DNA of 32,149 nucleotides from Gammaproteobacteria bacterium (GTDB lineage Bacteria; Pseudomonadota; Gammaproteobacteria; Steroidobacterales; Steroidobacteraceae), in assembly GCA_010029775.1 (NCBI GenBank), contig RGWK01000004.1:1-32149 (forward strand). Reading direction: 5' to 3'. The notes below the pieces were generated by a model. It made no database searches. It was not told the DNA's origin and saw nothing but the letters and a program-made list of their open reading frames with translations. Shown here piece after piece: positions 3,244 through 28,955 of the stretch. Numbering within the stretch: the first letter of the stretch is position 1; the number at the start of each line of letters is the position of its first letter. Position numbers and translations under genes: made by a program.

Positions 3244-4317
3244 ATGACACGTCGCAACACCATTGCCGCGCTACTGCTCAGCGGTTGCGGGTCGGCGCTG
3301 ATCGCTGGCCCTGCGTCCGCGCCGCCGACCCCTGTGGGGACCTCGCCCGTTGCCGGCTACACGGAGGCGCTCGATCGCGGCTGGCTGGAGGCTGTCATCA
3401 CGGTGCGGCAGCCAGAAGCCGTACTGCAGTTGGCCGAGCAGGTCGCCGGTTGGCAGATTGAAGCCCTGCCCGCGGCTGACACGGCTGCAGGGGCCGCCGC
3501 CAGCGCGGCGCGCGAGTGGCGCGTCGGCGATGCTTCCGGTCAACCGGGGGTGCTGCGGGTGATCGAGGCACGCGCATCGGCTGCAGGAACCTCCGCACGG
3601 TCCGTGCGCGCCTCGGCTCAACCCTGGGATACGGGCGGACACTTCAGCGTGATGACGCGTTCCAATGATGCCGAGGGTCGCTGGCGAAAGGCTGAATCGC
3701 TCGGTTGGGGCGCCTGGAACGCGCCGGTGGAACTGGATTTCGCAGGGGTGCGGCTCGCCAATGTCATCTTGCGCGGGCCCGAGGGTGTCAACGTCTCTAT
3801 CTATGAACGACGCGCGCCACGGTTGCCCGATGCGCCGGATCTGCGTGGGCTGCGTCGTCCGTTCAATGCGATGCAGATCGTGCGCGACCCGGCTGCCGCT
3901 CGGCGCTTTTATGTAGACATTTTGAAATTCGAGGTCCTGAACGAGGGGCGTTATCGCGGTGCGCCCGGTGTCGCCAACAATTTCGGCATGCCGGCCAACC
4001 TCGCAGGCGAGGTCGTGCTCGATTACATGATCGTGGCGCCGGTCAAGAACGGACCCACGCAAATTGAGGTGGTGCGATTCAATGGTATCGAGGGGCGTGC
4101 CTTGCCGACCGATCCGGCACCTACGCTCGGCATCACGGCGCTGCGCTTTCCGGTGAGCCGTCTCGCACTTATCGAGGAGCGGCTGCGCGCGGCGAACTGG
4201 CCGCTGCTGCAAGAAGCGACCGTACGGCAACTGGCGCCGTACGGTCGCGTGCGTTCGCTGAGTGTGAGCTCGCCTGAGGGTGCGGTTCTCGAGTTCTTCG
4301 AACTCAGCGCCCCATGA
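3244..4317 (+). CDS. Exported VOC (glyoxalase/bleomycin-resistance fold) family protein
   Basis: The 357-residue protein has an N-terminal export signal. Basic MTRR is followed by a hydrophobic stretch and either a lipobox (LSGC, Cys15) or a Sec cleavage site near AGPASA, so lipoprotein versus soluble periplasmic is open. Two VOC-like halves can be seen. The first (about 45-195) begins YTEALDRGWLEAVITV and ends GPEGVNVSIYER. The second (about 205-355) has FNAMQIVRDPAAARRFYVDILKF, the typical strand-helix start of a VOC module, and ends SSPEGAVLEFFEL. VOC proteins bind metal and act as isomerases, dioxygenases, hydrolases or binding proteins; which applies here is not evident. The start is fixed by the signal peptide. 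The 3' end overlaps the convergent DUF1838 gene by 14 bp. It is one of three VOC-family proteins in the window. Confidence 0.75.
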   Translation: MTRRNTIAALLLSGCGSALIAGPASAPPTPVGTSPVAGYTEALDRGWLEAVITVRQPEAVLQLAEQVAGWQIEALPAADTAAGAAASAAREWRVGDASGQPGVLRVIEARASAAGTSARSVRASAQPWDTGGHFSVMTRSNDAEGRWRKAESLGWGAWNAPVELDFAGVRLANVILRGPEGVNVSIYERRAPRLPDAPDLRGLRRPFNAMQIVRDPAAARRFYVDILKFEVLNEGRYRGAPGVANNFGMPANLAGEVVLDYMIVAPVKNGPTQIEVVRFNGIEGRALPTDPAPTLGITALRFPVSRLALIEERLRAANWPLLQEATVRQLAPYGRVRSLSVSSPEGAVLEFFELSAP

Positions 4318-5239
4318 TGGGCTGCCCCGGCCCGTACTTGGCCATGTACTCGGCGAAGTCGATGCGCGGTTTTGTCCACGACTTCAGATCAAAGATTTCC
4401 GGTGTTTTCTTTTCGAGCGCCAAGCGGGCACCGCGCGGCAGATCGTCGAGGCTGCGCAGCTTCGTGCCGAGGCCTTTGCCCCAGGTGCGCCCCGGTGTTT
4501 TGCCCATGCCGAGCCAGGGGTGAAAGCTGACCAGGTTCTGGAACTGCACCGTCGACAGGGCACTCGATTTGCCAGGATCCTGGATGTCGCGTAGGTCAGC
4601 GGCAAAAAAGTAATGCGAGTCCCAGTAGAACATGGGGCCGCCGGCTTCCTTCGGCCACTTGTCTTCTTTGAACGGATTAGGGAACGAAAAGGACGACTGG
4701 TTGGGTGCGAGCACCTTGCCGGCGATCACGTCGATGCGCATGTCCTTGGGTTTGAGAGTCGCCTCAGGTCCGGTGACGATGCCGTCGGGACCGATTTCCA
4801 CCGAAAGCGGGCCGCCGGCGAATTGCCAGATCTCACGCTTCTCGCCGGTGACGGGATTGACCCAATGATCGACGAGCTCATCGGTGTCGAAGGCGGTGTA
4901 GGCGCCCACCTCGCGCACCAGGCACTTGTAGTTGCCGTTCGGCAGCGGAGACCACGATCCCGCGGCGAGGTTCTGCATGGTCAGCATGGGCTTCAGATTG
5001 CCGTCATTGAGCCACAGGTACAGGTGCAGTCGTGTGAAGGTGTAGACCGTCTCTTCGGCAATCGAGCCCTTGAGTTTGGCGAGCAGGCGGGCCCGCGCTT
5101 TGGGGTCCTCCAGTTGCAGTGCCGACACTCCACTCGATGTGGCAGCCACGGCAGGCGAGATCATCGAGGCGGCCATCGATCCGCCTATGGCGACCGAGGC
5201 GCCGAGTACTGAGCGACGCGAAATACCCATGTCCGACAT
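4304..5239 (-). CDS. DUF1838 family protein, Tat-exported (paralogue A)
   Basis: The 311-residue protein begins with a twin-arginine signal (ISRRSVLGA, Arg8-Arg9, then a Gly/Ala/Ser hydrophobic core ending near SPAVAA), so export of a folded protein to the periplasm is predicted. The ATG at 5239 is preceded by a strong GAGGGGG ribosome site; upstream in-frame starts lack one. Features of DUF1838 are YTFTRLHLYLWL (about 55-70), the VREVGAYTAFDTDELVDHWVNP region, and NPVTGEKREIW, the family's asparagine-proline turn. It ends with a Lys/Pro-rich tail, WTKPRIDFAEYMAKYGPG. No function is known for the family, so no reaction is proposed. It is transcribed divergently from paralogue B across 98 bp. 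It is the least similar by eye to the other four and keeps a longer middle region (FPNPFKEDKWPKE). Confidence 0.75.
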   Translation of the reverse strand: MSDMGISRRSVLGASVAIGGSMAASMISPAVAATSSGVSALQLEDPKARARLLAKLKGSIAEETVYTFTRLHLYLWLNDGNLKPMLTMQNLAAGSWSPLPNGNYKCLVREVGAYTAFDTDELVDHWVNPVTGEKREIWQFAGGPLSVEIGPDGIVTGPEATLKPKDMRIDVIAGKVLAPNQSSFSFPNPFKEDKWPKEAGGPMFYWDSHYFFAADLRDIQDPGKSSALSTVQFQNLVSFHPWLGMGKTPGRTWGKGLGTKLRSLDDLPRGARLALEKKTPEIFDLKSWTKPRIDFAEYMAKYGPGQPIMGR

Positions 5240-5337
5240 GTGAACCCCCTCGAAAAATGAGCCCTGAACATAACGCAAGCCGATGCGTCTTGTCCTTGGC
5301 GACGTTACCCTGTCCTCCTGTTGCTCAAGGGGGTCAA
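5240..5337. promoter_or_regulatory. Shared upstream region of two divergent DUF1838 genes
   Basis: These 98 bp separate the start codons of paralogues A (leftward) and B (rightward). Both genes have near-identical strong ribosome sites, GAGGGGGTTCAC before A and AAGGGGGTCAA before B. For the leftward gene a sigma70-like pair can be proposed: TATGTT (plus-strand 5267-5272) and AGGACA (plus-strand 5291-5296), 18 bp apart. I see no equally good pair for the rightward operon. No operator palindrome is obvious. The promoter assignment is inference from consensus matching only. Confidence 0.35.
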
Positions 5338-6213
5338 ATGAGCGAAGCCACTGCATGGTCCAGACGTGAGGCCTTGGCCGGCCTCGGGCTGCTCGCGGTG
5401 TCGGGCGGCATGGCGCACGCGGCGGGTTCTGCAGCGTCAAGCGCACCGGCTGCTTCAGAGCCGTCAATCGTGCCTGCGGAGGTCTTCGCGGACTTCATGC
5501 GGCTGCGCACTTCGCCGGAGGGTAGGCCCGTGCTTTGGGTGTATTCCGGTGTGCTGGTCGTCAAGCCCGAGGGCGAAGTGGCGCGGACGCTGGCGCGCAT
5601 CGAGGGCTTGAGTCGCTCGTTTGCGGTCGCGCAGCCTGACGGCAGTTATCTCTGGACGCTCGATGAGGCCGGCTATTACTGCGATCCGCAGACGGGTGAA
5701 GTCGCCTCCTCCCTGTTCAATCCTTTCATCGGCCAAAACGTGGTGCCGAAACACTATCGCTCGCCGCAGACGCTGCGCTTTAGCCGCAACGGAATTATCC
5801 CCGGTCGCGAACTGCCACCCGGCATCGACTTTCGCGGCGAAATCACGCGCCTCGGGGAGGTCGCGGGAACCGTGGCTTTAACCGAAGATTTGTACGTGCG
5901 CATGGGCGCTACGGCAGCGACGGCGGATCGCCCGGCTCGTCCCGTGCGCTTCGCCAACTCGCTTGCGACCTTCACGACGTTACGGCGCAACCTGCAGCGC
6001 CCTGCCAACGAGTGGGTCGACTGCCAGTTCAACTACACGACCCTCAACACGTTCGTAGATTGGTTGCAGATGGGCGGTCGCGCGGGCGTGCAGGACATGC
6101 GACTCGTCGGCATCAAGTGTCGACTCGAGGATCGCGAGGCAGTACCGAGCAGTTTGCGCGCGCGCATCGAGCGCGAACATCCGGATTTGCTCAAGGGGAG
6201 TGAGCGCACATGA
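5338..6213 (+). CDS. DUF1838 family protein, Tat-exported (paralogue B)
   Basis: The 291-residue protein has a twin-arginine signal, WSRREALAGLGLL (Arg9-Arg10), ending near MAHAAG. The ATG at 5338 follows AAGGGGGTCAA. The mature part shows the DUF1838 layout: FMRLRTSPEGRPVLWVYSG at the N-terminus, YLWTLDEAGYYCDPQTGEV, then LFNPFIGQ in place of the usual NPxTGE turn. EDLYVRMGA and FANSLATFTTL follow mid-protein, and WLQMGGRAGVQDMRL lies near the C-terminus. The W-x2-M-G motif near the end is shared in form with paralogues C (WMLMG) and D (WMNMG). It is probably the first gene of the long rightward operon, and its TGA overlaps the ATG of the next gene (ATGA at 6210). Catalytic activity is not established for this family. 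Confidence 0.78.
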   Translation: MSEATAWSRREALAGLGLLAVSGGMAHAAGSAASSAPAASEPSIVPAEVFADFMRLRTSPEGRPVLWVYSGVLVVKPEGEVARTLARIEGLSRSFAVAQPDGSYLWTLDEAGYYCDPQTGEVASSLFNPFIGQNVVPKHYRSPQTLRFSRNGIIPGRELPPGIDFRGEITRLGEVAGTVALTEDLYVRMGATAATADRPARPVRFANSLATFTTLRRNLQRPANEWVDCQFNYTTLNTFVDWLQMGGRAGVQDMRLVGIKCRLEDREAVPSSLRARIEREHPDLLKGSERT

Positions 6214-7160
6214 TCGATCGACGCAGCCTCTTGCAAGGCGTGGGCTTCGCTGCGCTATTGCAGTCACCGGTGCTGGCCGAGGCGGCCGCTATGGTCGCCT
6301 CCGGGGGCGTGCCCGGCGCTGCGCCGGGTGCGCTTGATCTGCGCACCGCGCAGGGAAACGTGCGGGCAATGGCCAAGATGTCCGCCACGCTCGCTGCCGA
6401 TGGACACAAGCATGGCTGGTACAGCGGCGTGCTGATGGGTGTGGTGCCCGGGCAGGCGGTGCGCGAGCTCGTGGGCGTCATCGGCATGAGCACGCAGCGG
6501 CTGCGCGCGGTTCCGGAGCAGGGGGGTTATCAGCTGTTGCAGAAGGAGTGCGGCTTCTTCACCGATCTCGGTACCGGTGCCGTGCTCGATCGATGGCTTA
6601 ACCCCTACACCAACGAGTACGTTGAGCCGTTCCACATCGCCAATCCCGCGGTGAACCGCTGGATACTGCCGGTGGTCAAGGAGGAACGGTTCTATGATCG
6701 CGTGCAGAACGACGCGCCTGTGGAGCGACCCTTCGTGTTGCCGTGGAAGCGCGCGGGGGATCGCGTCATGCTTGAGCAACGCACCCACTTTTGGGCCAAC
6801 AACCCGCTGGATCCTGCAGTCTGGAAGCGGGAGAGCAGCGGGCCACGCATCCAGGTCTCCGATTGCATGAGTTACAACGCGCGGTACGATGATCTCGTTG
6901 ATCCGCGGCTCGACAGCGTGGAGTACTCGGGACATTGGGTGCACGTGCGACCGTGGCAGCCGTGGATGCTGATGGGCGCGCATCCGGGGCATTGCCTCTA
7001 TAGCGCGATGACCGGCAGCGCGCTGCGTGCCGAGAACGTGCCGGCCCAGATCCTCGGCATCGTGCGCGAGCGTCTGCCGGAGTTCCTGCAGCCGCCCACC
7101 GAGGTGCGCAAGAGCGAGCCCAGCATGATTCGCTTCATGCGGGAGCGCAAACCCTCGTGA
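6210..7160 (+). CDS. DUF1838 family protein, Tat-exported (paralogue C)
   Basis: The 316-residue protein begins MIDRRSLLQG, a short twin-arginine signal (Arg4-Arg5) with a hydrophobic core to about VLAEA. Family features are clear: YSGVLMGVVPG, GYQLLQKECGFFTDLGTG, RWLNPYTNEYVE (the NPYT-E turn), a middle block with WANNPLDPAVWKRESSGP, and the C-terminal WQPWMLMGAHPGHCLY. It keeps more of the long-form DUF1838 sequence than B or D, including the NPLDP segment. Translation is coupled to B by an ATGA overlap and to the next reading frame by GTGA at 7157. I infer the same compartment and probably the same pathway step or complex as its neighbours; paralogues in one operon suggest different substrates or a hetero-oligomer. 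Confidence 0.8.
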   Translation: MIDRRSLLQGVGFAALLQSPVLAEAAAMVASGGVPGAAPGALDLRTAQGNVRAMAKMSATLAADGHKHGWYSGVLMGVVPGQAVRELVGVIGMSTQRLRAVPEQGGYQLLQKECGFFTDLGTGAVLDRWLNPYTNEYVEPFHIANPAVNRWILPVVKEERFYDRVQNDAPVERPFVLPWKRAGDRVMLEQRTHFWANNPLDPAVWKRESSGPRIQVSDCMSYNARYDDLVDPRLDSVEYSGHWVHVRPWQPWMLMGAHPGHCLYSAMTGSALRAENVPAQILGIVRERLPEFLQPPTEVRKSEPSMIRFMRERKPS

Positions 7161-7724
7161 GCGGTCCCCTGCATCGGCATTACCACGGCAAGATGCTGTA
7201 TCTCACCGATGGCATCGGCGAGATGGGCCGCGAGTTTTTCAATAGACGGACAGTTGCTCGGGACCTCGTGGTTCAACTTCACGACCCGTACCGCCCAGTG
7301 CGAGGGACTCACCTCGCGCGACGGGCGGGTCTCGCAGCGCTTCGAACTCGACGAAGACATCGAGTCCTTTGGCACCCACGCCTTGCACGGCGATGCCTGG
7401 GTCGTGGCCCGTTTGCGTCGATATACCGGACCAATGGAGCGATTTGCGCTCGCGACCTTCACCAATTCGACGCGTGCCAATGGCGCCTCCGGGCCGACAC
7501 TGATCCGTCTCGGTGAGGGCTATTCGCGCATCCACGATCTCGGCGAAGAGACCCTCGCGGTGCCGGCCGGGCAGTTTATTACCCGGCATATCCGCATCGA
7601 TGTGCCCGGTGTCGATGATTTCGAGGTTTGGGCGGGCGGCGAGGATTGCTTGCCGGTGCAACTGCGATCAAAGAATTTACGCCAGACCTATGTGCTGGTG
7701 GATGTGCAGGGAGAGTGGCGATGA
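7157..7724 (+). pseudogene. Unrecognised operon gene split by a frame switch near 7236
   Basis: A GTG at 7157 overlaps the stop of paralogue C (GTGA) and begins SGPLHRHYHGKML, reading well to GIGEMGREF. From about 7236 the protein-like sequence continues in the frame of 7209-7724: SIDGQLLGTSWFNFT, CEGLTSRDGRVSQRFELDE, FGTHALHGDAW, EETLAVPAGQFITRHIRID, ending VLVDVQGEWR. The switch lies in a run of five T (7234-7238). Dropping one T joins the two parts into a protein of about 188 residues. No signal peptide is seen. The C-terminal half recalls DUF3108-like beta-rich proteins, but only by eye. Alternatives are a sequencing slip in the T run, a true frameshift with a small internal deletion, or a shorter gene starting at 7209. 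Its TGA overlaps the ATG of paralogue D. Confidence 0.6.
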
Positions 7725-8602
7725 CCAGGGTACGCCTCAATAGACGTGACGTAGTGGGCGGTGCGATCGGCGCGGTAGCGGCGGGCGCGGTGGGTTCAGC
7801 AGCCCAGGCATCAGTCGATGCGGCGCGCTCGGCCTCGCCGTCTACGTCGACGCCCGATCCGCGCATGCTGTACCGCAAGCTGCACCTTCGCACCGACGAT
7901 GGGCTGCTGTTCTGGTGGCTGCAGGGGCCGAAGATCGGGCAGGTGGGCACGACCTTGACGCCGCTTTATACGAGCAGCATCGGCACCGTGCAGCGCGTGC
8001 GTCACCGGGAAGATGGCGGTTTCGACGTCACGCAACTGGAACTGATCATTATCTGCGATTTGCAGACGGGGGAGCCCCTGACGCAATGGCGAAACCCCTA
8101 CACGGACGAAATGATCCCTATCCGTTTTGCGCCGGTCGGTCCTACCGTGGTGCGCTACCGAGCCGACAATTCGCGTGTCTTGCCGACCGAAATTGGGGGC
8201 ACGCCGTTGCAGGCCACCGCGACCATGCATGCGCCGGTGATTGTCGGTGACGATGTGTTTCAACGCGATGAGTCGGTGGCGCGCGTGTTTACGCCCGGTC
8301 GTGCTACGCCCTTCGAGGTCAACGATATCGCCGTTTATCACGGCAGTCTCGCCAATCTGACCGACCCGGCGGTAACGGTGGGTGAGGCGACGGTATTCTT
8401 CGCCGAAGTCACAGGCTGGCAACGCTGGATGAACATGGGTGATCGTGCGGGCAATTTGACCTCACGCCTGACCGGCCGCAAGGTTAGGCGCTACGCGGAG
8501 CTACCGTCGCGTTGGCGCGAGCAGCTTGCGGCCGTCGCGCCGAAGATTGCCGCCGATCCCATTGCTGCGCTCGATGTCGCCGCAGCCCGTTTCGATCGAT
8601 GA
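7721..8602 (+). CDS. DUF1838 family protein, Tat-exported (paralogue D)
   Basis: The 293-residue protein starts at ATG 7721 (ATGA overlap with the preceding frame, GGGAGAG ribosome site) and carries a twin-arginine signal, LNRRDVVGG (Arg8-Arg9), with an Ala/Gly core. This is the most typical DUF1838 member here: LYRKLHLRTDDGLLFWWLQGPKIG, TPLYTSSIGTVQRV, LIIICDLQTGEPL, RNPYTDEMIPIRFAPVGPTVVRY split across the central part, TEIGGTPLQATATM, and FAEVTGWQRWMNMGDRAG near the C-terminus, then a helical tail (PSRWREQLAAVAPKIAADP). A periplasmic location is predicted. Function is unknown. The next gene, a hydrolase, begins 7 bp downstream. Confidence 0.85.
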   Translation: MTRVRLNRRDVVGGAIGAVAAGAVGSAAQASVDAARSASPSTSTPDPRMLYRKLHLRTDDGLLFWWLQGPKIGQVGTTLTPLYTSSIGTVQRVRHREDGGFDVTQLELIIICDLQTGEPLTQWRNPYTDEMIPIRFAPVGPTVVRYRADNSRVLPTEIGGTPLQATATMHAPVIVGDDVFQRDESVARVFTPGRATPFEVNDIAVYHGSLANLTDPAVTVGEATVFFAEVTGWQRWMNMGDRAGNLTSRLTGRKVRRYAELPSRWREQLAAVAPKIAADPIAALDVAAARFDR

Positions 8603-8609
8603 GGTGACC

Positions 8610-9527
8610 ATGTTGCGTAATGTGCTCATATCTTTGTTGCTGCTGGGTCTGGCCCCGCTTGCATCGGTTGCCGCGGAGCCCGCTGCGCCCAGCGCGTCGG
8701 CAGGATTCGTCTTTCGCTACGTGACGGCCACCGATGGCGTGCCGCTCAACGTGGTGGAGACCGGTAACCCTACGGGGTCCGCCATCATTTTTCTGCACGG
8801 CTACACGCAGAGTTACCTCAGTTGGCATCCGCAACTCGACGATGCGGCGCTCCGTGCCAAGTATCGACTGATTGCCGTAGACCTGCGTGGACACGGTGCA
8901 TCGGGCAAGCCCTGGGATAAGGCCGCCTACGCAGGTCATTTGCCCTGGGCCCGTGACGTACGTCGCGTCGTCGAGGAACTCGGTGTGACGCGGCCGATGC
9001 TCGTCGGTTGGTCTTTTGGCGGTTTCGTCGCCATGGACTATGTTCGTGAATACGGCGAGGCCGCAGTCGCCGGGGTGATGATGACGGGCAGTCACGGCGG
9101 TCTGCTGTCGCGCCCCGTCGGTCAACCGCCTGCATTCACCGGTGATCTTGACCTCGCCATCGACGGTGCGCGTACGTTCATGAAGATGATGTCCGTGGAG
9201 CCGCCCGCGCCCGCCACCGTCGATCGCGGCACCTATGCCAATGTCATGATGCCGGCGTATGTGCGTAATGCCATGTGGGGCAAGCGACTCGATAACACCG
9301 ATCTCACGCCGCGCCTGCAGTTACCGGTGCTGATGATTCTCGGCCGGCAGGATCTGAGTTTACCGGCCGACGCGATTGCGAGCTCGTTGGCGTCACGATC
9401 CAACATCACCGTGCGGATCTTCGAGCAGACGGGGCACTCGGCGTTCATTGAGCACCCGGCGCGATTCAATCAGGAGCTCGCGACCTTCGTCGGGCGGACA
9501 GACAGCGTCAAAGGGAGTCAGGAATGA
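8610..9527 (+). CDS. Exported alpha/beta hydrolase with intact catalytic triad
   Basis: The 305-residue protein starts at ATG 8610, after GAGGTGACC, with a Sec-type signal (LISLLLLGLAPLASVAA, likely cleavage after AAE or nearby). Fold landmarks are the oxyanion segment FLHGYTQS (61-68), DLRGHGASGKP (91-101), the nucleophile elbow GWSFGG with Ser135, acid Asp248 in LGRQDLSLP, and His276 in TGHSAFIEHP. It is therefore a probable active serine hydrolase (esterase, lactonase or C-C hydrolase) acting in the periplasm. The cap region (MKMMSVEPPAPATVD) gives no substrate hint. It follows DUF1838 paralogue D by 7 bp and overlaps the next hydrolase by ATGA, so the two are co-translated. Confidence 0.88.
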   Translation: MLRNVLISLLLLGLAPLASVAAEPAAPSASAGFVFRYVTATDGVPLNVVETGNPTGSAIIFLHGYTQSYLSWHPQLDDAALRAKYRLIAVDLRGHGASGKPWDKAAYAGHLPWARDVRRVVEELGVTRPMLVGWSFGGFVAMDYVREYGEAAVAGVMMTGSHGGLLSRPVGQPPAFTGDLDLAIDGARTFMKMMSVEPPAPATVDRGTYANVMMPAYVRNAMWGKRLDNTDLTPRLQLPVLMILGRQDLSLPADAIASSLASRSNITVRIFEQTGHSAFIEHPARFNQELATFVGRTDSVKGSQE

Positions 9528-10531
9528 AATCGTGGCAATCGCCGTTTCGTAGCGGCCGGCTACTGTCGGTGGTGATGTGGGTGATGCTGCTCGGTACTCC
9601 GGCGGGTGCGGCGTGGGCGCTCGGCACACCGTCAGTGCCGTTGGCCACGCTCGAATCCCGATACGTGACACCGACCTCGCTTTTCGCGGAGATCGACGGT
9701 GTGCGCATGCACTACAAGGACGAGGGCACGGGCCCCGCGGTGGTAATGCTGCACGCGTCGTACATGAGCCTGCACAGCTGGGACGCCGTGGCTGCAGACC
9801 TCGCCCGCGATCATCGCGTCATCCGTTTCGATTTTCCGCTCGCGGGGCTGACGGGTCCCGACCCGCAGCGCCGCTACTCGATGGAGCGAAGCGCGGAGTT
9901 GATGAACGGGTTGCTCACCAAACTCGGCGTGAGCACCTATTCGATCATTGCGACGTCCTCTGGCGCCATCGTCGGTTTTCGTCAGGCGGCGGCCAAGCCC
10001 GAGGCGGTGACCCGGCTGATCCTGATCAATGCTGCGGGCATGCCGCGCACGGCGGTGACAGACCCGAACCGGGAGCGGGGCACGGCATTCAGCCGGTGGC
10101 TGCAAGGCAAGTACAAATCTCGTGGCTACTGGAAAACAACGCTGACCGGGCAGTTCACCGGTGGCCAGCCGCCGCCCGCCGACATCGTCGAGCGCGTGTT
10201 TGACCTCAATCGACGATCGGGGCTCGTCGAGGAGTCGGCGATCTACATGCGCAATTTCCGCACGGGCGATCCCGAGGCCGTGCTCGGACAGATTCGCGCG
10301 CCCACGCTGATTCTTTGGGGCATGGGTAACATCACCGTGGCGCACCTCGAGGCCGACGTTTTCCAACTTTGGTTGACACAGGCGCCTTCGATCAAAAAGA
10401 AATATCCTCGCTATGGGCACTACGTCTACATGGAAAACCCCGGCATCGTGATCCCCGATGTGCGCAATTTTCTCGAGGGGCGCATGGACGCGGAGTTGCG
10501 CGTAACGCGGCGGCTGCCGCCTGCTCCATGA
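9524..10531 (+). CDS. Exported alpha/beta hydrolase-fold protein with altered acid position
   Basis: The 335-residue protein has an N-terminal signal or anchor (LLSVVMWVMLLGTPAGAAWA). It resembles the MhpC/haloalkane dehalogenase-like branch: YKDEGTGPAVVMLHASYMS (oxyanion region), FDFPLAGLTGPD, and elbow ATSSGA with Ser145 in the small-x-Ser-x-small context. His299 in YGHYVYMENP is at the catalytic histidine position. The usual Asp after the sixth strand (W-G-x-x-D) reads LWGMGNIT, so Asn269 replaces it; an acid could come from another position, as in some families. A cap helix region (YKSRGYWKTTLTGQFTG) is present. It is coupled by ATGA to the preceding hydrolase and lies 1 bp before the di-iron hydroxylase. 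A periplasmic role in the same pathway is inferred. Confidence 0.82.
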   Translation: MKSWQSPFRSGRLLSVVMWVMLLGTPAGAAWALGTPSVPLATLESRYVTPTSLFAEIDGVRMHYKDEGTGPAVVMLHASYMSLHSWDAVAADLARDHRVIRFDFPLAGLTGPDPQRRYSMERSAELMNGLLTKLGVSTYSIIATSSGAIVGFRQAAAKPEAVTRLILINAAGMPRTAVTDPNRERGTAFSRWLQGKYKSRGYWKTTLTGQFTGGQPPPADIVERVFDLNRRSGLVEESAIYMRNFRTGDPEAVLGQIRAPTLILWGMGNITVAHLEADVFQLWLTQAPSIKKKYPRYGHYVYMENPGIVIPDVRNFLEGRMDAELRVTRRLPPAP

Positions 10532-10532
10532 C

Positions 10533-11384
10533 ATGACGCCACTTCAGTTTCAAAGTCTGGTCGTCGTCGGCATCTTGCTGTTCTACGCGCTGCTGGAGCT
10601 TGCACGCGGCCGGTTTTTCACCGCAGCGGCGGATCGGGAGGACAACCGTCTCGATGTGGCGGTGATGATGATGTTTCCGCTGGTGTCGGGCGGCGTGTCG
10701 ATCGTCGCTGTTGCGCTGTGCCAGGCCTTCATGCCGGAGCAGGCGGGGGCGCTCTCGCATTGGCCGTGGTGGGCCATGGTGCTGACGCTGCTCGTAGTCG
10801 ACGATCTCACCCAGTACTTTTGGCATCGCTTGTCGCACACGAGCGTGCTGTGGCCGCTGCATCGGGCGCATCACAGCGCCTCATACATGAGCGTGCGTGT
10901 CGTCTACCGCAACAATGCGTTGTACTACGCGATGATGCCGGGACTTTGGTTGAGCGCAGTGTTCAGTTTTTTGGGTTTCAGCTGGGTGTATGTCGGTTAC
11001 ATCATGGTGAAGTTGGCCGTCATTGCCGGTGCGCACTGCAGCCTGCCCTGGGATGCGCCGCTCTACCGCATCCGGGCGCTTCGACCGGTGATGTGGGTGC
11101 TCGAGCGCACCATTTCGACACCCGCCACCCACTGGGCACATCACGCCTTGTCGCAGGATGATGGCGTCGGCCACTACTCCGGCAACTTCGGCAACCTGCT
11201 TTTTCTTTGGGACGTGCTCTTTGGCACGGCGCGGATCACGCGTCGCTACCCGCCGGCGTTCGGTCTTGCAGATGATCGCGCGCACGGTCACGAGAAGTGG
11301 TACACGCAGATGCTGTTCCCCTTCGTTCGGTCGCGCCGAGCCGAATCGAGCCTCGTCTGGCCGCCCGGGCGACCGCCGGCGTGA
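10533..11384 (+). CDS. Fatty acid hydroxylase / sterol desaturase superfamily membrane protein
   Basis: The 283-residue integral membrane protein carries the three histidine boxes of the di-iron hydroxylase/desaturase superfamily: HRLSH (His98-His102), HRAHH (His110-His114) and HWAHH (His200-His204). These bind a di-iron centre that uses O2 to hydroxylate or desaturate lipids, sterols, carotenoids or ether lipids. Hydrophobic helices lie at about 7-22, 45-65, 80-95, 133-165 and 220-232. The start ATG at 10533 is 1 bp after the preceding stop, and the final TGA overlaps the next start (GTGA). The active site is expected on the cytoplasmic face, unlike the exported neighbours, so the pathway may span the membrane. 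The substrate is not deducible. Confidence 0.88.
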   Translation: MTPLQFQSLVVVGILLFYALLELARGRFFTAAADREDNRLDVAVMMMFPLVSGGVSIVAVALCQAFMPEQAGALSHWPWWAMVLTLLVVDDLTQYFWHRLSHTSVLWPLHRAHHSASYMSVRVVYRNNALYYAMMPGLWLSAVFSFLGFSWVYVGYIMVKLAVIAGAHCSLPWDAPLYRIRALRPVMWVLERTISTPATHWAHHALSQDDGVGHYSGNFGNLLFLWDVLFGTARITRRYPPAFGLADDRAHGHEKWYTQMLFPFVRSRRAESSLVWPPGRPPA

Positions 11385-12889
11385 GTGTGCCGCCCGCAAC
11401 GGACCGACGAGGCCTGCTGCGGGGCCTGCTGGCCGGTTCCGTGTTGGGCGCCTCGGCACCGACGCGCAGCGAAGAAAGGGGTACCGCACCTGCGGCATTG
11501 CCGGATCGGCGCTGCATTATCGATGCGGGCTGGGCACTGCTGCACGATGGCCAAGGCTTTGCGCTGCAGCGTGACGTGTCGATCGTGATCGATGGCGATC
11601 GCATTGCGGCCGTGCATGCCGGCGCGCTGCGCTCCATGTTGCCGCGGGTGGACGCGCGGACTCATCTGGTGCTTCCCGGGTTTATCTCCGGGCACACCCA
11701 CGTGGCCGGAGGCACGGTTACGCGCGGCATCTTCGAAGGTCGCCGCTCCTACGCGCGGGCGCTCGAACTCGCCGAGACGCTGGATGATGATGCCCTCGAT
11801 GCCTTAACCGCCCTGAACCTCGCCGAACTGCTGCGTTCGGGCTGCACCACGCAACTCGACATGGCCCTGTCGTTACGACAGATGCAAAGTTACGTGCGTG
11901 TGGCTCGGCGCTGGGGGGTGCGTGCGTACCCCTCGGCCATGGTGCCGGGCGTCGGGCGATTGTTTCCGATCTGGCAACGCGAGAGCGATTCGGTATTGCG
12001 TGATTCGGTGCCGGATACTCTGGCGGAGATCGCAGCCGCGCTGAGTTACGCGCGCCAGATCAACGGCGCCGACGATGGCTTGATCCGCCCGCAAATGGCG
12101 ATGCATGCGAGCGACACACATACGCCAGAGACCATTGCCGCAACGCTCGCTGCGGCTGCTGAACTCGGTCACGGGTTGCATTTGCACCTCTGCCAGGGCG
12201 CACGCGAGGTCGAGGCCGTGCAGCGTTTGTGGCAGCAGCGGCCGGTGCAGTGGCTGGACTCGCTCGGCGTGTTTGCGCAGCGCGTATTCGCGGCGCACAT
12301 GTCGAGTGCGGACCCGGCGGTGGATGCGCCGCTGCTGCGTCGCGGCACGTTCACCTATTGCACCTGTCCCTCAGCAGGCGGTGCGAGCGGGTTCACTCAA
12401 CCGTGGCCGGAGATGCTCGCGGCGGGCGTGAACACGAATATCGGCATCGACACCCATTCGAACGACTACGTCGAGAATCTCAAGCTCGCGGTGCTCAAAG
12501 GCGAGGCGCGCTGGTCCTTGCTGCGTCGCAGTTCACCCGTGCCACTGCAACGGCCGAGCATCCAGCGCGCTGTGGAGGCGGCGACGGTCGATGCCGCCCG
12601 CGGTCTTGGCCGTGACGATATCGGACGCATTGCAGTCGGAGCGAAAGCGGATCTCGTCTCGATCGATGTGTCCGGACTGCTGGCGGGCACGGGCGCATTG
12701 CCGCCCGAGCCGCTCTACCATCTGCTCTATGCCAATGGCCTGATGGTGCGGCACGTGTTGATTGATGGCGCTTTCAAGGTGTTCGACGGAGTGCTGCGGG
12801 TCGATGACGAAGCGACTCTGCTGGCGCAAGGCGGAGCGGTGGTGCAAAAAATCTGGGCGCAACTCGACGAAGAGGGGTTTTTCAAATGA
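11381..12889 (+). CDS. Tat-exported amidohydrolase (TrzA/AtzA-like metal-dependent hydrolase)
   Basis: The 502-residue protein starts at GTG 11381, overlapping the preceding stop (GTGA), with a twin-arginine signal TDRRGLLRGLLAGSVLGA. The ORF extends further upstream, but only into the preceding gene. Amidohydrolase metal-site motifs are in order: FISGHTHVAGG (His105, His107), HLHLCQG (His267/His269), AAHMSS (His306) and GIDTHSND (Asp357). The small N-terminal composite beta-sandwich (DVSIVIDGDRIAAV) and its C-terminal partner (IGRIAVGAKADLVSID) are both present, as in cytosine deaminase/chlorohydrolase relatives. Those enzymes hydrolyse C-N or C-Cl bonds on ring compounds, and most are cytoplasmic, so an exported member is notable. 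It is coupled to the next gene by ATGA. Confidence 0.87.
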   Translation: MSVPPATDRRGLLRGLLAGSVLGASAPTRSEERGTAPAALPDRRCIIDAGWALLHDGQGFALQRDVSIVIDGDRIAAVHAGALRSMLPRVDARTHLVLPGFISGHTHVAGGTVTRGIFEGRRSYARALELAETLDDDALDALTALNLAELLRSGCTTQLDMALSLRQMQSYVRVARRWGVRAYPSAMVPGVGRLFPIWQRESDSVLRDSVPDTLAEIAAALSYARQINGADDGLIRPQMAMHASDTHTPETIAATLAAAAELGHGLHLHLCQGAREVEAVQRLWQQRPVQWLDSLGVFAQRVFAAHMSSADPAVDAPLLRRGTFTYCTCPSAGGASGFTQPWPEMLAAGVNTNIGIDTHSNDYVENLKLAVLKGEARWSLLRRSSPVPLQRPSIQRAVEAATVDAARGLGRDDIGRIAVGAKADLVSIDVSGLLAGTGALPPEPLYHLLYANGLMVRHVLIDGAFKVFDGVLRVDDEATLLAQGGAVVQKIWAQLDEEGFFK

Positions 12890-14367
12890 CCGTGTTCAAG
12901 CTGGGTGTGGCGGGTGTGATGGGCGTACTGATCGGCGTGTCGTCGTCGATGGCGCAGGCGATCGAGTGGCAGACCTTCGATCCGTCGCCCTATTCGCAGA
13001 GCGTGACCGACTGCGACCGTGAGGCCGCACACCCGGACGACCCGAACAAAGTGGTCCCGGGTCGCACCTCGCGCGAGATGAATCTCGACACGGCCATTCG
13101 TGTCTGTCGGGCAGATCTCGCCAAAGATCCGAACAACCCGCGCATCGGCTATCAGCTCGCGCGTTCACTCACCTACGCGGGAAAGGTTACCGAAGCGTTG
13201 CCCTTCATCGAGCGTGCCGCGGCACAGAAATATCCGCAGGCCATGTTCGTCGTCGGCTATCTGTATCTCGAGGGCTCCTACGCCTCACCCAAGAATCCTT
13301 GCCGCGCCGCGCAATTGATCCGCGAGTCGGCAATCTACGGACGACTGGCCGGGCTGCTCGGCTACCCGTCGTACGTGTTGAACGGCCGCTTTGCCGGTTG
13401 CGGGCTGCAGGTCGATGCGCAGGAACTGCGCGGCGGAGGATCGGAAATGAAAGGATCGGACATGAACGACAAGCGAGTATCGCGGCGTGACGTATTGCAG
13501 ACAGCCGCGGTTGCTGGGCTCGCGCCGCTTATTGCAGCCGCCCCCGCGGAGGCCAACCTGCCCCGGCCGGGCGGTGAGCGCGGTTATGCCCGCGGTCCGC
13601 ACGGTCAGGTGCACTACCACGACAATCAGGGCGCGAGTGCGATGCCCTTGCTGCTGCTGCATCAGGCACCGATGTCCCATCGGCAATTCGACGCGGTGTA
13701 CGGTCCTTTGAAGCAACGCGGGGTTCGTGCGATCGGCATCGACATGCCGGGCTTCGGCATGTCGGACCCGACGCCGTTCGTGCCTAAGGTCGCCGATTGG
13801 GCAAGCTCGATCGCGGCGGTACTCGACCATCTGCGCATTCGGCAGGCCGATGTGCTCGGTCATCACACCGGTGCGCTGCTCGCCACCGAGGTCGCGCTGC
13901 AGTATCCAGCGCGCGTGCGGCGGGTGATTCTGAATGGCCCGTTCCCCATTACCGAGTCCGAGCGGGCGATGTTTCTTGCCGATCTGCAGAAGACGGAAAT
14001 CGACTTCGAGTACCGCGCGGATGGCACTCACCTGTCGGAGAGTTTCGTCAAGCGCTCGAAGTTCTACGGCCCTGATGCCGACCCGAAGCACATCACGCGC
14101 ATTCAGGTTGAAAAATTCATGGGTTACGGACCGTTCTGGTACGGCCACAACGCCGCCTACCGCTACGATCACGCCAGCACGCTGAAGTTGTTGAAGCACC
14201 CGACGCTGATACTCACCAACACCGGGGACATGGCCTACCCGATGGCGCAACGTGCCCGGCAGATGCGCCCCGACATGGCCTACGTCGAGCTGCAGGGTGG
14301 CAACGTCGACATCGTCGATCAGGCGACCGAGCCCTGGAGCGATGCCGTCAAGGCCTTCGTCGCCTAG
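12886..14367 (+). CDS. Fused ORF: exported Sel1/TPR-like domain plus Tat-signal alpha/beta hydrolase-fold domain
   Basis: One uninterrupted 493-codon frame holds what look like two proteins. Residues 1-25 are a Sec signal (VMGVLIGVSSSMAQA). Residues about 65-170 are a Sel1/TPR-like helical repeat region (AIRVCRADLAKDPNNPRIGYQLAR, then AMFVVGYLYLEG) with several cysteines. Residues 188-222 are a second, internal twin-arginine signal (RVSRRDVLQT, Arg200-Arg201). Residues 230-493 are an alpha/beta hydrolase fold: LLLHQAPMSHRQFD, DMPGFGMSDP, elbow GHHTGA and NTGDMAYP (Asp448). The nucleophile site is His327 instead of Ser, and the C-terminal His position reads QGGNVDI (Asn473). A catalytic Ser-His pair is thus lacking. 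An internal ATG with its own ribosome site suggests the second half can be made separately. Last gene of the operon. Confidence 0.75.
   Translation: MTVFKLGVAGVMGVLIGVSSSMAQAIEWQTFDPSPYSQSVTDCDREAAHPDDPNKVVPGRTSREMNLDTAIRVCRADLAKDPNNPRIGYQLARSLTYAGKVTEALPFIERAAAQKYPQAMFVVGYLYLEGSYASPKNPCRAAQLIRESAIYGRLAGLLGYPSYVLNGRFAGCGLQVDAQELRGGGSEMKGSDMNDKRVSRRDVLQTAAVAGLAPLIAAAPAEANLPRPGGERGYARGPHGQVHYHDNQGASAMPLLLLHQAPMSHRQFDAVYGPLKQRGVRAIGIDMPGFGMSDPTPFVPKVADWASSIAAVLDHLRIRQADVLGHHTGALLATEVALQYPARVRRVILNGPFPITESERAMFLADLQKTEIDFEYRADGTHLSESFVKRSKFYGPDADPKHITRIQVEKFMGYGPFWYGHNAAYRYDHASTLKLLKHPTLILTNTGDMAYPMAQRARQMRPDMAYVELQGGNVDIVDQATEPWSDAVKAFVA
13435..13464 (+). promoter_or_regulatory. Internal ribosome binding site and start for the Tat-hydrolase half
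   Basis: Inside the fused frame, GGAGGA (13435-13440) sits 6 bases before ATG 13447, and AAGGA lies ahead of a second ATG at 13462. Starts here would give a protein of about 306 or 301 residues whose N-terminus is a proper twin-arginine signal. An internal Tat signal after a Sec-exported domain makes little sense, so independent initiation is the likely arrangement. This is read from the sequence; its use is inferred. Confidence 0.6.
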
Positions 14368-14412: not shown

Positions 14413-15138
14413 TCAGGCGGCGAGTGCCACCGTCACCTTGTTGTCGGCGCCGATGTCCGACACGCTGATGGGCACGCCCATGGCTGCGGCATAGCCGAGC
14501 AGGCGCGGCTTCAGCCAGGTCTCGTGCATCTCGGTATCGCTGAGATCGAATTGCCCGGAGCGCCTCGCCTCGGCGAGCACGTACGAGTAAGGAAACGTGA
14601 AGGTCCGTTTACCGGGTTCGACTTTCAGATCGAGGCAGAGCTGGTAGAGGCAGGCCGTGCGATCGAAGATGCCGGCCAGCGCGATTTCCTTCTCGCCGGT
14701 TTTTTCGATCATGCCCTTGAGGCGTTCGAGCATCGGTTGCATGGTGCGGATATCGTGCTCGACGTAATCGTTGAGCACGCCATGAGTCTTGGCGAACTGC
14801 ACTGAGGTCAGGTGCATATTGACCAGTGCATCGTTCATTTCATGCGGATAGGGCGCCGTGTCCTTGAGCGTGCGGATCGCCATGGCTACGGCCTCGCCGA
14901 GTACTTTCTCCCGCCCTTCGAAGCCGCTCGAGGTGGCGAGCATTGCAGCCATGCTTTGCGGTGCTCCGCCCCCCGCCAGCATCGCCTTAACCCAGGGCGG
15001 CGGGCCACCGCCTGAACCGGGAGCTCCGCCCCCGGCGCTGGCCATCATTTTTTTCATCGCCCAGGAGATGAGCTTGGCCTTCAAGCCCTTCTTGGGTGGT
15101 GCGGGCGGTGTGGCGGTGCGTTCAGCAGTGACAGACAT
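14413..15138 (-). CDS. Protein of unknown function, Pro/Gly-rich N-terminus
   Basis: I do not recognise this 241-residue protein. The ATG at 15138 follows a strong GAGGAGGG site. The first 65 residues are low-complexity and basic, then Gly/Pro-rich (PPAPPKKGLKAKLISWAMKK, then ASAGGGAPGSGGGPPP). After that comes a predominantly helical region (VLGEAVAMAIRTLKDTAPYP, MLERLKGMIEKTGEKEIALAG) with IFDRTACLYQLCLDLK and a C-terminal KPRLLGYAAAMGVPISVSD. No signal peptide or membrane helix is evident, so it is probably cytoplasmic. It lies 32 bp downstream of the ASCH-like gene on the same strand, suggesting a two-gene operon, and is convergent with the fused hydrolase gene. No function is proposed. 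Confidence 0.65.
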   Translation of the reverse strand: MSVTAERTATPPAPPKKGLKAKLISWAMKKMMASAGGGAPGSGGGPPPWVKAMLAGGGAPQSMAAMLATSSGFEGREKVLGEAVAMAIRTLKDTAPYPHEMNDALVNMHLTSVQFAKTHGVLNDYVEHDIRTMQPMLERLKGMIEKTGEKEIALAGIFDRTACLYQLCLDLKVEPGKRTFTFPYSYVLAEARRSGQFDLSDTEMHETWLKPRLLGYAAAMGVPISVSDIGADNKVTVALAA

Positions 15139-15813: not shown

Positions 15814-16893
15814 ATGAAACGATGGCAGCAGGCGATCACCGCGGTGTTGGTGGGCGTAGTGATGGCCGTGTCCGGACTGCGGGCCGCAGCCGGGCCTGCT
15901 CACGACCCGTCGCGACAGGAACTTGAAGCGATTCTGGCCGATCTCATTGCCTGGTTGCCGGGAGGTTGGGACTCCTATCCTCAAGTGCATTTTGAGCGGC
16001 GCTATCGCGTTCCCGCCGAGGGCGAGCACGAGCACTGGCACCATATCTTCGAACGCATCGATGCGCCGCAGATTGGCGAGGTCGTTTTCTACGGCCAGAT
16101 CAATCCGGGCGGGCGTGATGCGCCGATGATGCATCGCTCGCAAATTCTCTACAAAGTCTGGATCGACGAGCAGCGCGGCGTGGTTGTGGTCAACGGCCAG
16201 GGACCCGCTGATCCTGACGCGTTTGTCGATCTGCACGAGCGCCCGGAGTTATGGTCCAAGGTTCGCATGCGCGATCCGGCGAAGATCAACTGCGATTTCA
16301 TCTGGCGCCGCGATGGCGAGCAGATCGTCGGTGTGCTCGATGGCAAGACAGCGGCCGGGCGCACCCAGGGGCCGGGTACCTGCACGTACATGGTCAACAG
16401 CACCGATGTGCGTTTCATTGCTGACGCCGAGTGGGTGCTCTCGCCCGAGGTGTTCTGGGACTACGATCTCAATGAAATGGCTGGCCATCAGTTCATCGGG
16501 CGCAAGGATAAAACCCACATCAAGATGTACCGGGCACGCGGTTACGACTGTCGCGTGCGCGATGCCGAGGGCGAGCGTCGCTGGCAGGCCTACGATCGTG
16601 GCGCGACTTTGGCCGTGAAAACCTCAGTCGGGCCGCGCCAGTTGATGCTGTTGCGCGCGCCGATGCCCGATGCCGCCGGTCGCGGTATGCACGACAAGTT
16701 GCGCTTGCTGCTGCAGAAACCCGGCGAGGACGCGCCGCTGTACGAAACCGAGTCCGAGCCGCGCGCTGCATCGATCGCACTCGAGCGCGACGGTGTGAAC
16801 GTGCAGTGCGCGCTTGCGCCCTCGCTGCCGCGCATGCACAAGGCAGATGCCGCAGTCGCATCCGCGGGACACAGCACGTCAGCGGGGCATTGA
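15814..16893 (+). CDS. Exported CpeT/CpcT-like protein
   Basis: The 359-residue protein starts at ATG 15814, after a GGGGGGCGAG site, and has a Sec-type signal (AITAVLVGVVMAVSGLRAAAG). The mature region resembles the CpeT/CpcT family, whose cyanobacterial members attach bilin chromophores to phycobiliproteins. Similar features are LIAWLPGGWDSYPQ at the N-terminus, HRSQILYKV, CDFIWRRDGEQIVG, CTYMVNSTDVRF, VLSPEVFWDYDLN and HIKMYRARGYDCRV, the order of a lipocalin-like barrel with a terminal YRAR-x-Y-x-C element. Non-photosynthetic bacteria also carry such proteins, with no known role. The last 110 residues (RQLMLLRAPMPD onward) extend beyond that family. It is divergent from the ASCH-like gene and overlaps the convergent EamA gene by 15 bp. 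Family assignment moderate; function unknown. Confidence 0.6.
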   Translation: MKRWQQAITAVLVGVVMAVSGLRAAAGPAHDPSRQELEAILADLIAWLPGGWDSYPQVHFERRYRVPAEGEHEHWHHIFERIDAPQIGEVVFYGQINPGGRDAPMMHRSQILYKVWIDEQRGVVVVNGQGPADPDAFVDLHERPELWSKVRMRDPAKINCDFIWRRDGEQIVGVLDGKTAAGRTQGPGTCTYMVNSTDVRFIADAEWVLSPEVFWDYDLNEMAGHQFIGRKDKTHIKMYRARGYDCRVRDAEGERRWQAYDRGATLAVKTSVGPRQLMLLRAPMPDAAGRGMHDKLRLLLQKPGEDAPLYETESEPRAASIALERDGVNVQCALAPSLPRMHKADAAVASAGHSTSAGH

Positions 16894-17823: not shown

Positions 17824-18651
17824 TCAGGGTGCGGCGGGTTGCTGCAAGCGCCGGATTTCGGCGAGATCACGCGGCGGTTCGCGCCACAATGCTGCCTCGC
17901 TTTGCACGTACTCGCGGATGCTTTGTGGCAAGTCCTCGAACCGATCGACCCGCCACGACACCATATGCATCACGCCCTTGCCGAGTCCCGCAGGCAGATC
18001 ACCGAAGCGCAACCAGCTGATCTGATACGGATGCCGCAGTCCCTTCGCCGCCGATTGATCGAAGAAATCGTAATGCTCGAACGCCTGACTGCGTGTGCCG
18101 TCTCGCAGTGGGAAGTCGAGAAACAGCGGCGCGGAGAAGGCGAGCGTTCCGCCGATGCGCCGCGCCATGATGTCCGTACCCGGACCGATGCGTTGAACCC
18201 GCGCTCCTGCGCCTTGCTCCACCCAGCTCTCGACGCTGCGGTCCCGCAATTCGTAGGTGATGTACTGGTAGGGGTAACTGATCGGCGGCAGGGGTTTGCC
18301 TTGCCACTCGCGCAGGATCGCGTTGCTCTGCAAGTCGCGGTACACGAAGGTCTTGCGCGAGAGCTGATGTGCCTTGCTCGCGGTGGACTGGGTGGTGTCG
18401 AGCCGGGCCGCGTCGATGCCCTCCATGCGCATCAGCGGCTGGCCGCTTGGCGAGCTGTAGACCGTGCCGACCGCATACCAGTACACCGGGGTGCCCGAGC
18501 CGACGCGCATCTGTACCCATTGGCGAAACACCTCGGGGTCGAAGCCACGATCGACGTTGGCGGGCTGCGCGGAACCGACCGGCATCAGACCGCCGGCACA
18601 GCACAGCATGGCGGCCCAGAGAATGGCCACACGGGAACGGGATTGGCGCAT
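17824..18651 (-). CDS. DUF1838 family protein, Sec-type signal (paralogue E)
   Basis: The 275-residue protein starts at ATG 18651, 6 bases after a GGAG site. The frame extends far upstream (to 19332) only as an antisense shadow of the NlpC/P60 gene. The signal peptide (SRSRVAILWAAMLCCAGGLMPVGSAQ) lacks a twin-arginine pair, so Sec export is likely, unlike the other four paralogues. DUF1838-like elements are FRQWVQMRVGSGTPVYWYAVG, SRKTFVYRDLQSN, SYPYQYITYELRD and YQISWLRFGDLPAGLGK. The NPxTGE turn is replaced by EWQGKPLPP. It is diverged but alignable in outline with B and D. It sits about 9 kb from the other paralogues, upstream of the EamA permease and divergent from the NlpC/P60 gene. Confidence 0.7.
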   Translation of the reverse strand: MRQSRSRVAILWAAMLCCAGGLMPVGSAQPANVDRGFDPEVFRQWVQMRVGSGTPVYWYAVGTVYSSPSGQPLMRMEGIDAARLDTTQSTASKAHQLSRKTFVYRDLQSNAILREWQGKPLPPISYPYQYITYELRDRSVESWVEQGAGARVQRIGPGTDIMARRIGGTLAFSAPLFLDFPLRDGTRSQAFEHYDFFDQSAAKGLRHPYQISWLRFGDLPAGLGKGVMHMVSWRVDRFEDLPQSIREYVQSEAALWREPPRDLAEIRRLQQPAAP

Positions 18652-20921: not shown

Positions 20922-21866
20922 TCAGTGCTCGATGAGCCAGTGGAAAACGCCGTGCGGTGCGCGAATGATCGCAGTGCGACGCACGCTGCCTGCGATGTCG
21001 ACCGACTGCGGTTCACCCGCGATCTCGATGCCGGCGCTGCGGCATCGCGCCACGAGTGACTCGAGTCCGCTGACCCGCAGCCGCACACCGATGATACCGC
21101 GATTGGGCGGCCGAGCGCGCTCGCGCAAGTCGGCATAGCTGCCCTCGGGCAGCCCGTAGTGGATGATGCCGAGCATCACGTCTTCGACGACACGGCCGTA
21201 ATTATTGGCCCGGATATGCAGCGTTTGGCTGACACCGACCATGCGCGAGAAGGACTCGCTCGCGAACTCGTAGCGAAAGCCGAGCGGCACGCCCAGCACC
21301 TCTTCGTAGAACTGCCGCACCGGCTCGAAGTCGCTGACCGGGCCCGAACTGCTCTGCACTTCGCTGAAGACTCGATCGGTCAGTGTGACGAACTGTGCGG
21401 CATCGACGTTTTGGGGCTCGATCGCCGCGATCATCACCCCATCCGGACCCTTGGCATGGGCTTCGAGAAAGCGCGACCCGTCCGGTAAATCGACGTGGGC
21501 CCCTTCCGAGACCAGCTCGAACCCATGGGCTCGCAGCCGCGCCACCGCCGCAGGACGATCTGCAGTAAAGAAATCGATCATCTTTAGGGCGTTGCAGGCC
21601 ACGCCCACTCCGCCTTCGCGGATGACGACGGCAGAACCCGGTGAGAACTGTACGAGCCATACGCCGAGTTCCGAGCCTGGCGTGACGAGGCACATCAAGC
21701 GAGCGGTTTGTCCTGCCACGCCAAACAGGACTTGAGTGGCCTTGGCATCGAGCGCGGCGTCCGCCACGACCTGCATGCCGATGACGTCGGCGAACAATTC
21801 GCGCTGGCGGGGCAGATCCGCCGTGCTGATGATGGGTCCGTCGATGGATTCGACGCGGCCGCTCAA
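20922..21866 (-). CDS. Double VOC (glyoxalase/dioxygenase fold) protein
   Basis: The 314-residue protein probably starts at TTG 21866, whose last two bases overlap the TGA of the upstream transporter gene; upstream codons in frame are antisense-like and Arg-rich. Two VOC modules are visible: residues about 8-125 (GPIISTADLPRQRELFADVIGMQVV, then FTADRPAAVARLRAHGFELV) and about 150-312 (DFEPVRQFYEEVLGVPLGFRY, then SGLESLVARCRSAGIEI, ending with APHGVFHWLIEH). Both open with the usual strand and helix. The final segment resembles the C-terminal metal-ligand strand of VOC enzymes, but ligands cannot be assigned by eye. No signal peptide, so cytoplasmic. Possible activities include ring-cleavage dioxygenase or lactoylglutathione lyase-like chemistry. 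Confidence 0.78.
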   Translation of the reverse strand: MSGRVESIDGPIISTADLPRQRELFADVIGMQVVADAALDAKATQVLFGVAGQTARLMCLVTPGSELGVWLVQFSPGSAVVIREGGVGVACNALKMIDFFTADRPAAVARLRAHGFELVSEGAHVDLPDGSRFLEAHAKGPDGVMIAAIEPQNVDAAQFVTLTDRVFSEVQSSSGPVSDFEPVRQFYEEVLGVPLGFRYEFASESFSRMVGVSQTLHIRANNYGRVVEDVMLGIIHYGLPEGSYADLRERARPPNRGIIGVRLRVSGLESLVARCRSAGIEIAGEPQSVDIAGSVRRTAIIRAPHGVFHWLIEH

Positions 21867-26096: not shown

Positions 26097-26125
26097 GTCA
26101 TCAGCATAGCGCCGACGGAGGTCGC

Positions 26126-28862: not shown

Positions 28863-28885
28863 TTGCGCCCTTCGGGAGAGGGGTT

Positions 28886-28925
28886 CCGGGCAATAGCCCG
28901 GTTTCCGCTTGTCCGAGCGGTTTTC
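28886..28925 (+). promoter_or_regulatory. Two small hairpins in the TonB receptor leader
   Basis: CCGGGC-AATA-GCCCGG (28886-28901) is followed closely by CCGCT-N6-AGCGG (28905-28920) and then TTTTC. The second hairpin with its short T run looks like a weak terminator, so attenuation of the receptor gene is conceivable. The stems are short and no known riboswitch shape is recognised. The ribosome site AGGGAAGGA follows at about 28937-28946. Confidence 0.3.
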
Positions 28926-28955
28926 AAAGCAAACAACAGGGAAGGATTCAACACC

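Follow-up and report, generated by a model that had tools for sequence, protein, structure and literature searches.

A predicted ten-gene operon of DUF1838 and hydrolase-fold proteins in a lake bacterium, part of which recurs beside TonB receptor genes

The DNA analysed here, referred to throughout as the window, is a stretch of 32,149 nucleotides (RGWK01000004.1) corresponding to contig 224 of the 2.75-Mb genome of a lake bacterium (585 contigs, 77% complete). Positions 5338 to 14367 hold a tightly packed block of forward-strand genes, named gA to gI2, with a divergent gene, g0, just upstream (Table 1). As judged from gene neighbourhoods across the host's order, genes for DUF1838 proteins, for the hydrolase-fold proteins gE and gF, and for TonB receptors are repeatedly neighbours in several families. 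We cautiously favour a joint prediction for the locus itself: that it is a single transcription unit of ten genes plus the divergent g0, and that it encodes a mainly periplasmic module acting on a compound imported by a TonB receptor encoded elsewhere in the genome. Such a periplasmic, uptake-linked module is supported by the co-occurrence, above random level, of gE homologues with DUF1838, gF and TonB receptors.

To our knowledge this combination of genes is undescribed; a literature search, with subscription papers mostly outside its reach, found no pathway of such composition, in agreement with a first-pass annotation of the same DNA. The nearest named relatives of the source organism are the Nevskiaceae metagenome-assembled genome (MAG) ZLKRG17, which supplies locus L001, and the lake MAG Erken-D3, which supplies locus L002.

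Gene neighbourhoods of gE across the order

We searched 396 genomes of the order for gE and took 33 homologue loci, excluding the operon's own; these were scanned with profiles built for this analysis to a distance of about 10 kb from gE, and 40 random 20-kb regions from complete genomes of the order served as the control. A DUF1838 gene was found near the gE homologue in 16 of the 33 loci, compared with 1/40 random regions (Fisher 3e-6), a TonB receptor gene in 21/33 against 7/40 (Fisher 8e-5; no more than 400 bp from gE in 14 loci) and gF in 15/33 against 0/40 (Fisher 7e-7); about seven of the loci come from a single genus of family f12, so that they are not independent and these Fisher values overstate the association, and the control was drawn from three genomes only.

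Neighbouring DUF1838 and gE genes occur in families f1, f2, f3, f12 and f15. As in the window, gF overlaps gE or directly adjoins it in L205, L206, L217 and other loci. One block from another family (L114) brings together homologues of gD, gE, gA and gB, the gA homologue being split by a frame change. Tight packing alone is ordinary among bacteria; what stands above chance is that some genes of this set are again found together in other families. The first-pass annotation had proposed to give up its operon-wide pathway if the gene set were not conserved elsewhere, and the outcome is divided, with the full set restricted to a few genomes of the genus (below) and a subset extending across families.

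Within the window, the nearest TonB-dependent receptor gene, recognised by eye, lies at 28863-31931, 14.5 kb downstream of the operon, and is a possible partner.

Operon architecture and the variable site

As read in the window, 5338-14367 comprises nine coding units, all on the same strand, with ATGA junctions at 6210, 7721, 9524 and 12886, GTGA junctions at 7157 and 11381, a 7-bp gap at 8603-8609 and a single base at 10532. The list of junctions in the first-pass annotation is exact. L001 carries the same block in identical gene order, with like kinds of junction at homologous places; L002, which spans gD to gI1, is alike except at gH/gI1, where it has GTGA and the window ATGA. The block therefore shows what is expected of an operon: one strand, genes that overlap or lie only a few bases apart, and retention in relatives.

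Comparison with L001 indicates ten genes in the intact operon, of which gC is broken in the window, because 12886-14367 corresponds to two L001 genes and gC is intact in L001. The nine genes of the first-pass annotation match the nine coding units of the window and understate the intact set, to which g0, omitted there, is probably to be added. In the window, gC has 29 codons in its first frame and the remainder in another, leaving no single open frame across 7157-7724; in alignment with L001 a net ~134 bp is missing at ~7244, with a frameshift. Positions 12886-14367 are a single open reading frame in the window only, whereas L001 has gI1 (215 amino acids) and gI2 (301 amino acids) joined by ATGA; a net loss of 68 bp, including the gI1 stop, fuses the frames in the window, and gI2 retains its own start and a signal resembling those for twin-arginine translocation (Tat) at 13462. 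Both the gC break and the fusion could be real mutations or errors of assembly in a genome of 585 contigs.

The disrupted frame and the deletion in gC, together with the lost 3′ end of gI1, might mean that the operon is starting to break down in this genome, which we consider improbable. Ratios of non-synonymous to synonymous substitution rates (dN/dS) against L001 are 0.03-0.11 for every gene, with 0.055 for the surviving part of gC and 0.07 for the stretch of gI1 shared with L001, so that any decay would be recent; moreover, an assembly error is possible, and further members of the gC family are present in the same genome. On these ratios, all of the operon genes are under purifying selection.

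Over the 107 bp that separate g0 from gA, the sequence is 94% identical to that of L001, a value at the 99.7th percentile among windows of the same size (mean 83%), and this near-identity suggests that g0 and the operon share a control region. A scan for consensus promoters and terminators, this gap included, gave no surplus over shuffled sequence. In a locus of the same genus (L213), a 76% homologue of g0 is next to a homologue of gE, with a 52% homologue of gA close by, which ties g0 to the system; the divergent gene probably belongs to the same system as the operon.

Of the 24 genus genomes, just three carry a close gE orthologue (above 80%): the window's own, G752 (L001) and G719 (L002, by coordinates). 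What lies beside the downstream gene at 14413-15138 (−) differs among members of the genus, and may be gG, gI2, the whole operon or other genes.

Apart from the dependence among loci and the narrow source of the control, several observations weigh against a periplasmic, uptake-linked module. About half of the gE loci lack a DUF1838 gene in their neighbourhood. The operon itself contains no TonB receptor gene, and the TonB-linked uptake proposed in the first-pass annotation finds its counterpart in other families, where DUF1838, gE and gF co-occur with receptors. The full operon is present in 3/24 genomes of the genus, and in six relatives within the genus gG adjoins the 14413 gene without the rest of the operon. 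Operon genes are lacking from 78 of the 80 loci with gG homologues, only L001 and L002 having the partners, and the two nearest homologues of gH (52-57%) stand apart from other operon genes. From these distributions gG is probably a local resident gene outside the conserved core, and gG and gH both have the appearance of local additions. Part of the chemistry first proposed weakens: of the three proteins that had been taken for hydrolases, gE alone has the standard triad; gF is without the usual acid position and gI2 without Ser and His. An O2-dependent hydroxylation step shared with the other proteins, as first suggested, is weakened to a guess by the stand-alone homologues of gG.

The main rival explanation builds on the same variability. 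A variable site between the glutathione S-transferase (GST) and molybdopterin-oxidoreductase genes on one side and the 14413 gene on the other might have gathered unrelated exported proteins, which would be co-expressed and yet not form one pathway. At this site, other members of the genus carry only gG, only gI2 or a homologue of gI1, or have further DUF1838 or gE genes in the vicinity, and homologues of gG and gH stand alone in most genomes. However, DUF1838, gE and gF are linked far beyond this site, and the overlaps are preserved in two sister species; we regard such gathering as possible, if rather doubtful, and retain the uptake-linked module as our working proposal.

Table 1. Features of the predicted operon and its upstream region (window coordinates; dN/dS and identities are relative to L001)
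Feature	Coordinates	Strand	Description	Score or comparison
g0	4304-5230	−	DUF1838, Tat-like signal, divergent	PF08894 62 bits; 97% identical in L001
g0-gA intergenic region	5231-5337		candidate shared control region	102/108 alignment columns identical to L001
gA	5338-6213	+	DUF1838, Tat-like signal	PF08894 50 bits; dN/dS 0.10
gB	6210-7160	+	DUF1838, Tat-like signal	PF08894 118 bits; dN/dS 0.05
gC	7157-7724	+	DUF3108-like, broken in window	233 amino acids, intact in L001
gD	7721-8602	+	DUF1838, Tat-like signal	PF08894 65 bits
gE	8610-9527	+	predicted exported alpha/beta hydrolase, canonical Ser-Asp-His	PF00561 91 bits
gF	9524-10531	+	predicted exported alpha/beta-hydrolase fold, Ser and His kept, acid position Asn	PF00561 71 bits
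gG	10533-11384	+	membrane protein of FA_hydroxylase family (di-iron type)	PF04116 72 bits
gH	11381-12889	+	predicted exported amidohydrolase, ATZ/TRZ-deaminase type	PF01979 96 bits
gI1	12886-13461	+	predicted exported, weak TPR/Sel1; C-terminal part replaced, stop lost	215 amino acids in L001
gI2	13462-14367	+	alpha/beta-hydrolase fold, Tat-like signal, GHHTG	separate gene in L001, 95% identical

Protein families, active sites and export

Pfam searches confirmed the composition given in the first-pass annotation, with three DUF1838 proteins, three of alpha/beta-hydrolase fold, one FA_hydroxylase of the di-iron type and one Amidohydro_1 protein encoded in 5338-14367; none of the operon proteins scores above the cut-off of any named NCBIfam family. 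Export signals, judged by eye from the N-termini, are Tat-like in gA, gB, gD, gH, gI2 and g0 and resemble those of the general secretory (Sec) pathway in gE, gF and gI1. No signal was seen by eye in gC, and gG is a membrane protein. By these signals the operon proteins appear to be mostly exported, and the largely periplasmic character first proposed would fit all of them but gC and gG.

The four DUF1838 paralogues all exceed the PF08894 gathering cut-off of 25 bits, as members of that family should; the particularity of this locus is that four of them stand side by side with Tat-like signals. About 16 DUF1838 genes are present in the host's genome (G000), and genomes of families f12 and f15 in this order have comparable numbers, whereas DUF1838 is almost absent from other genera of the host's own family. 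A further DUF1838 gene, at 17824-18642 (−), lies outside the operon in a position conserved among members of the genus. A DUF1838 profile search of the PDB gave no credible match. An AlphaFold model of gB, with a predicted local distance difference test score (pLDDT) of 55 and a predicted template modelling score (pTM) of 0.57, left a beta-rich impression only and was too poor to use; its best Foldseek match, LmcA (E 6e-4), was set aside, as the template modelling score was only 0.2-0.3.

In the literature search, which covered 5.39 million papers, PF08894 was found nowhere and DUF1838 only in one article, which lists the DUF1838 protein ArtU in an actinomycete aurantimycin biosynthetic cluster without stating a function (PMC5031334). 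This listing would fit a cluster whose proteins make or modify a compound destined for export or for the envelope rather than degrade an imported one, as would the inclusion of the ornithine-lipid hydroxylase OlsE, a weak match, among relatives of the FA_hydroxylase protein. A core biosynthetic enzyme is absent from the operon, however, and TonB receptors are among the conserved neighbours; we think a biosynthetic or modification role very unlikely.

Among the hydrolase-fold proteins, gE resembles serine alpha/beta hydrolases of the esterase/haloperoxidase type (PDB 4x00, a ‘putative hydrolase’, and 7yii) over its full length, and has the complete triad expected of a serine hydrolase, in GWSFGG, GRQD and GHS, with Ser, acid and His conserved in aligned homologues. 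The other two depart from this pattern. In gF, ATSSG and GHY keep Ser and His, while Asn (GMGN) occupies the place where the acid usually lies, as it does in close relatives; another acidic residue may replace it. In gI2, GHHTG takes the place of GxSxG, which puts His at the nucleophile position, and the catalytic-His position is Asn (GGN), so that the residues of a serine hydrolase are lacking; nearly all aligned homologues have Asn, Gly, Thr or Ser at the latter position. With Ser and His absent from nearly all aligned homologues as well, gI2 cannot, on its sequence, be called a textbook hydrolase; the departure is a trait of the family, not decay in the host genome. Several homologues in the GHHTG family (L136-L167) directly adjoin TonB receptor genes (L166, L167). 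The GHHTG motif was not found in the literature search.

The membrane protein gG passes the PF04116 cut-off (31 bits) and, like other members of the fatty acid hydroxylase/sterol desaturase superfamily, has membrane segments and three His clusters, identified by eye as HRLSH, HRAHH and HWAHH. It differs from OlsE in falling far under the cut-off of the OlsE model (31 vs 475 bits) and belongs to a subfamily of its own that is common in Burkholderiales. Likewise, gH passes the PF01979 cut-off (25 bits), carries the metal motifs of its superfamily (GHTH, AAH, IDTHSND) and matches ATZ/TRZ amidohydrolases such as 8-oxoguanine deaminase and atrazine chlorohydrolase over most of its length, its closest PDB sequence being an 8-oxoguanine deaminase (7ww2); unlike them, it lies under every NCBIfam equivalog cut-off, has a Tat-like signal and seems by eye to have HLCQ at the usual HxxE position. 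The TPR/Sel1 similarity of gI1 is below the Pfam cut-off. For gC there was no Pfam match; a plasmid homologue, 32% identical, is annotated DUF3108, and a structure model (pLDDT 35) was unusable.

In the mechanism that we propose, a TonB receptor would import a hydrophobic compound that contains ester, lactone or amide bonds, and DUF1838 proteins might bind or hold the compound or its products, or act as auxiliary partners. The triad residues of gE are present, and gE would hydrolyse the compound by Ser-Asp-His chemistry, with gF performing a second step; gG, gH, gI1 and gI2 would then, in the host lineage, adapt the module to one specific substrate.

Known systems, plasmid loci and flanking genes

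A TonB-dependent receptor for a lignin-derived aromatic compound is described from Sphingobium, and adjacency of enzyme and receptor genes is a known arrangement (PMC6874591). As in such sphingomonad loci, relatives of the operon have hydrolase genes adjoining a TonB receptor gene, which suggests receptor-mediated uptake followed by breakdown; unlike them, the operon is without a receptor and its proteins, DUF1838 included, are seemingly periplasmic.

Plasmids of sphingomonads, another class, provided further cases, which are examples without a random control. On a Novosphingobium plasmid a receptor gene is followed by two DUF1838 genes, and elsewhere on it a gI2 homologue is followed by a DUF1838 gene; on pSA1 of N. 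resinovorum (L300) a gI2 homologue directly adjoins a reading frame that matches gC. On Sphingomonas and Sphingobium plasmids a gC homologue lies within a catabolic-looking cluster that contains a receptor gene. Some neighbourhoods of gC and gI2 include isochorismatase and polysaccharide-deacetylase genes and, by eye, hydantoinase-like and ureidoglycolate-lyase-like genes; that the substrate might be an N-heterocycle is a lead only.

Gene order around the gC homologue is near-identical in the plasmids of Sphingobium sp. TomTYG65 (L295) and Sphingomonas sp. JE1 (L296): the genes are those for an isochorismatase, two polysaccharide deacetylases, LeuCD-like proteins, an HMG-CoA lyase, a CoA transferase, a major facilitator superfamily transporter and a TonB receptor. 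The literature search returned nothing for pJE1.

More tentatively, and with considerable doubt, we suggest that DUF1838, the gE/gF pair and the GHHTG family could together constitute an undescribed and widespread periplasmic catabolic system, in which GHHTG proteins would bind TonB-delivered substrates or carry out non-hydrolytic chemistry on them. Its scope would take in several families of the order and Novosphingobium, with some 16 DUF1838 genes per genome where it is expanded. The full operon is local to three species, and the wider significance lies in the recurring core and the GHHTG family. A neighbourhood count controlled against random regions ties the DUF1838, DUF3108-like and GHHTG protein families to outer-membrane uptake, and it defines a small core of gE, gF, DUF1838 and a receptor that cultured bacteria would allow to be tested. 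Identification of the substrate could explain the diet of freshwater and soil bacteria rich in TonB receptors and DUF1838.

Two first impressions of genes downstream of the operon were not borne out by Pfam: 15850-16893 as CpeT-like and 14413-15138 as DUF1993-like, the latter having no Pfam match. Three glyoxalase-superfamily-like proteins, exported or soluble, are encoded on the flanks of the operon at 3244-4317 (+), 21003-22103 (−) and 25536-26132 (−); the first, with a weak Pfam match, either overlaps g0 at its 3′ end or adjoins it there, and the third was judged by eye. Between the molybdopterin-oxidoreductase-like and GST-like genes, L001 is ~776 bp longer than the window (position 1750 of the window against 248-1274 of L001).

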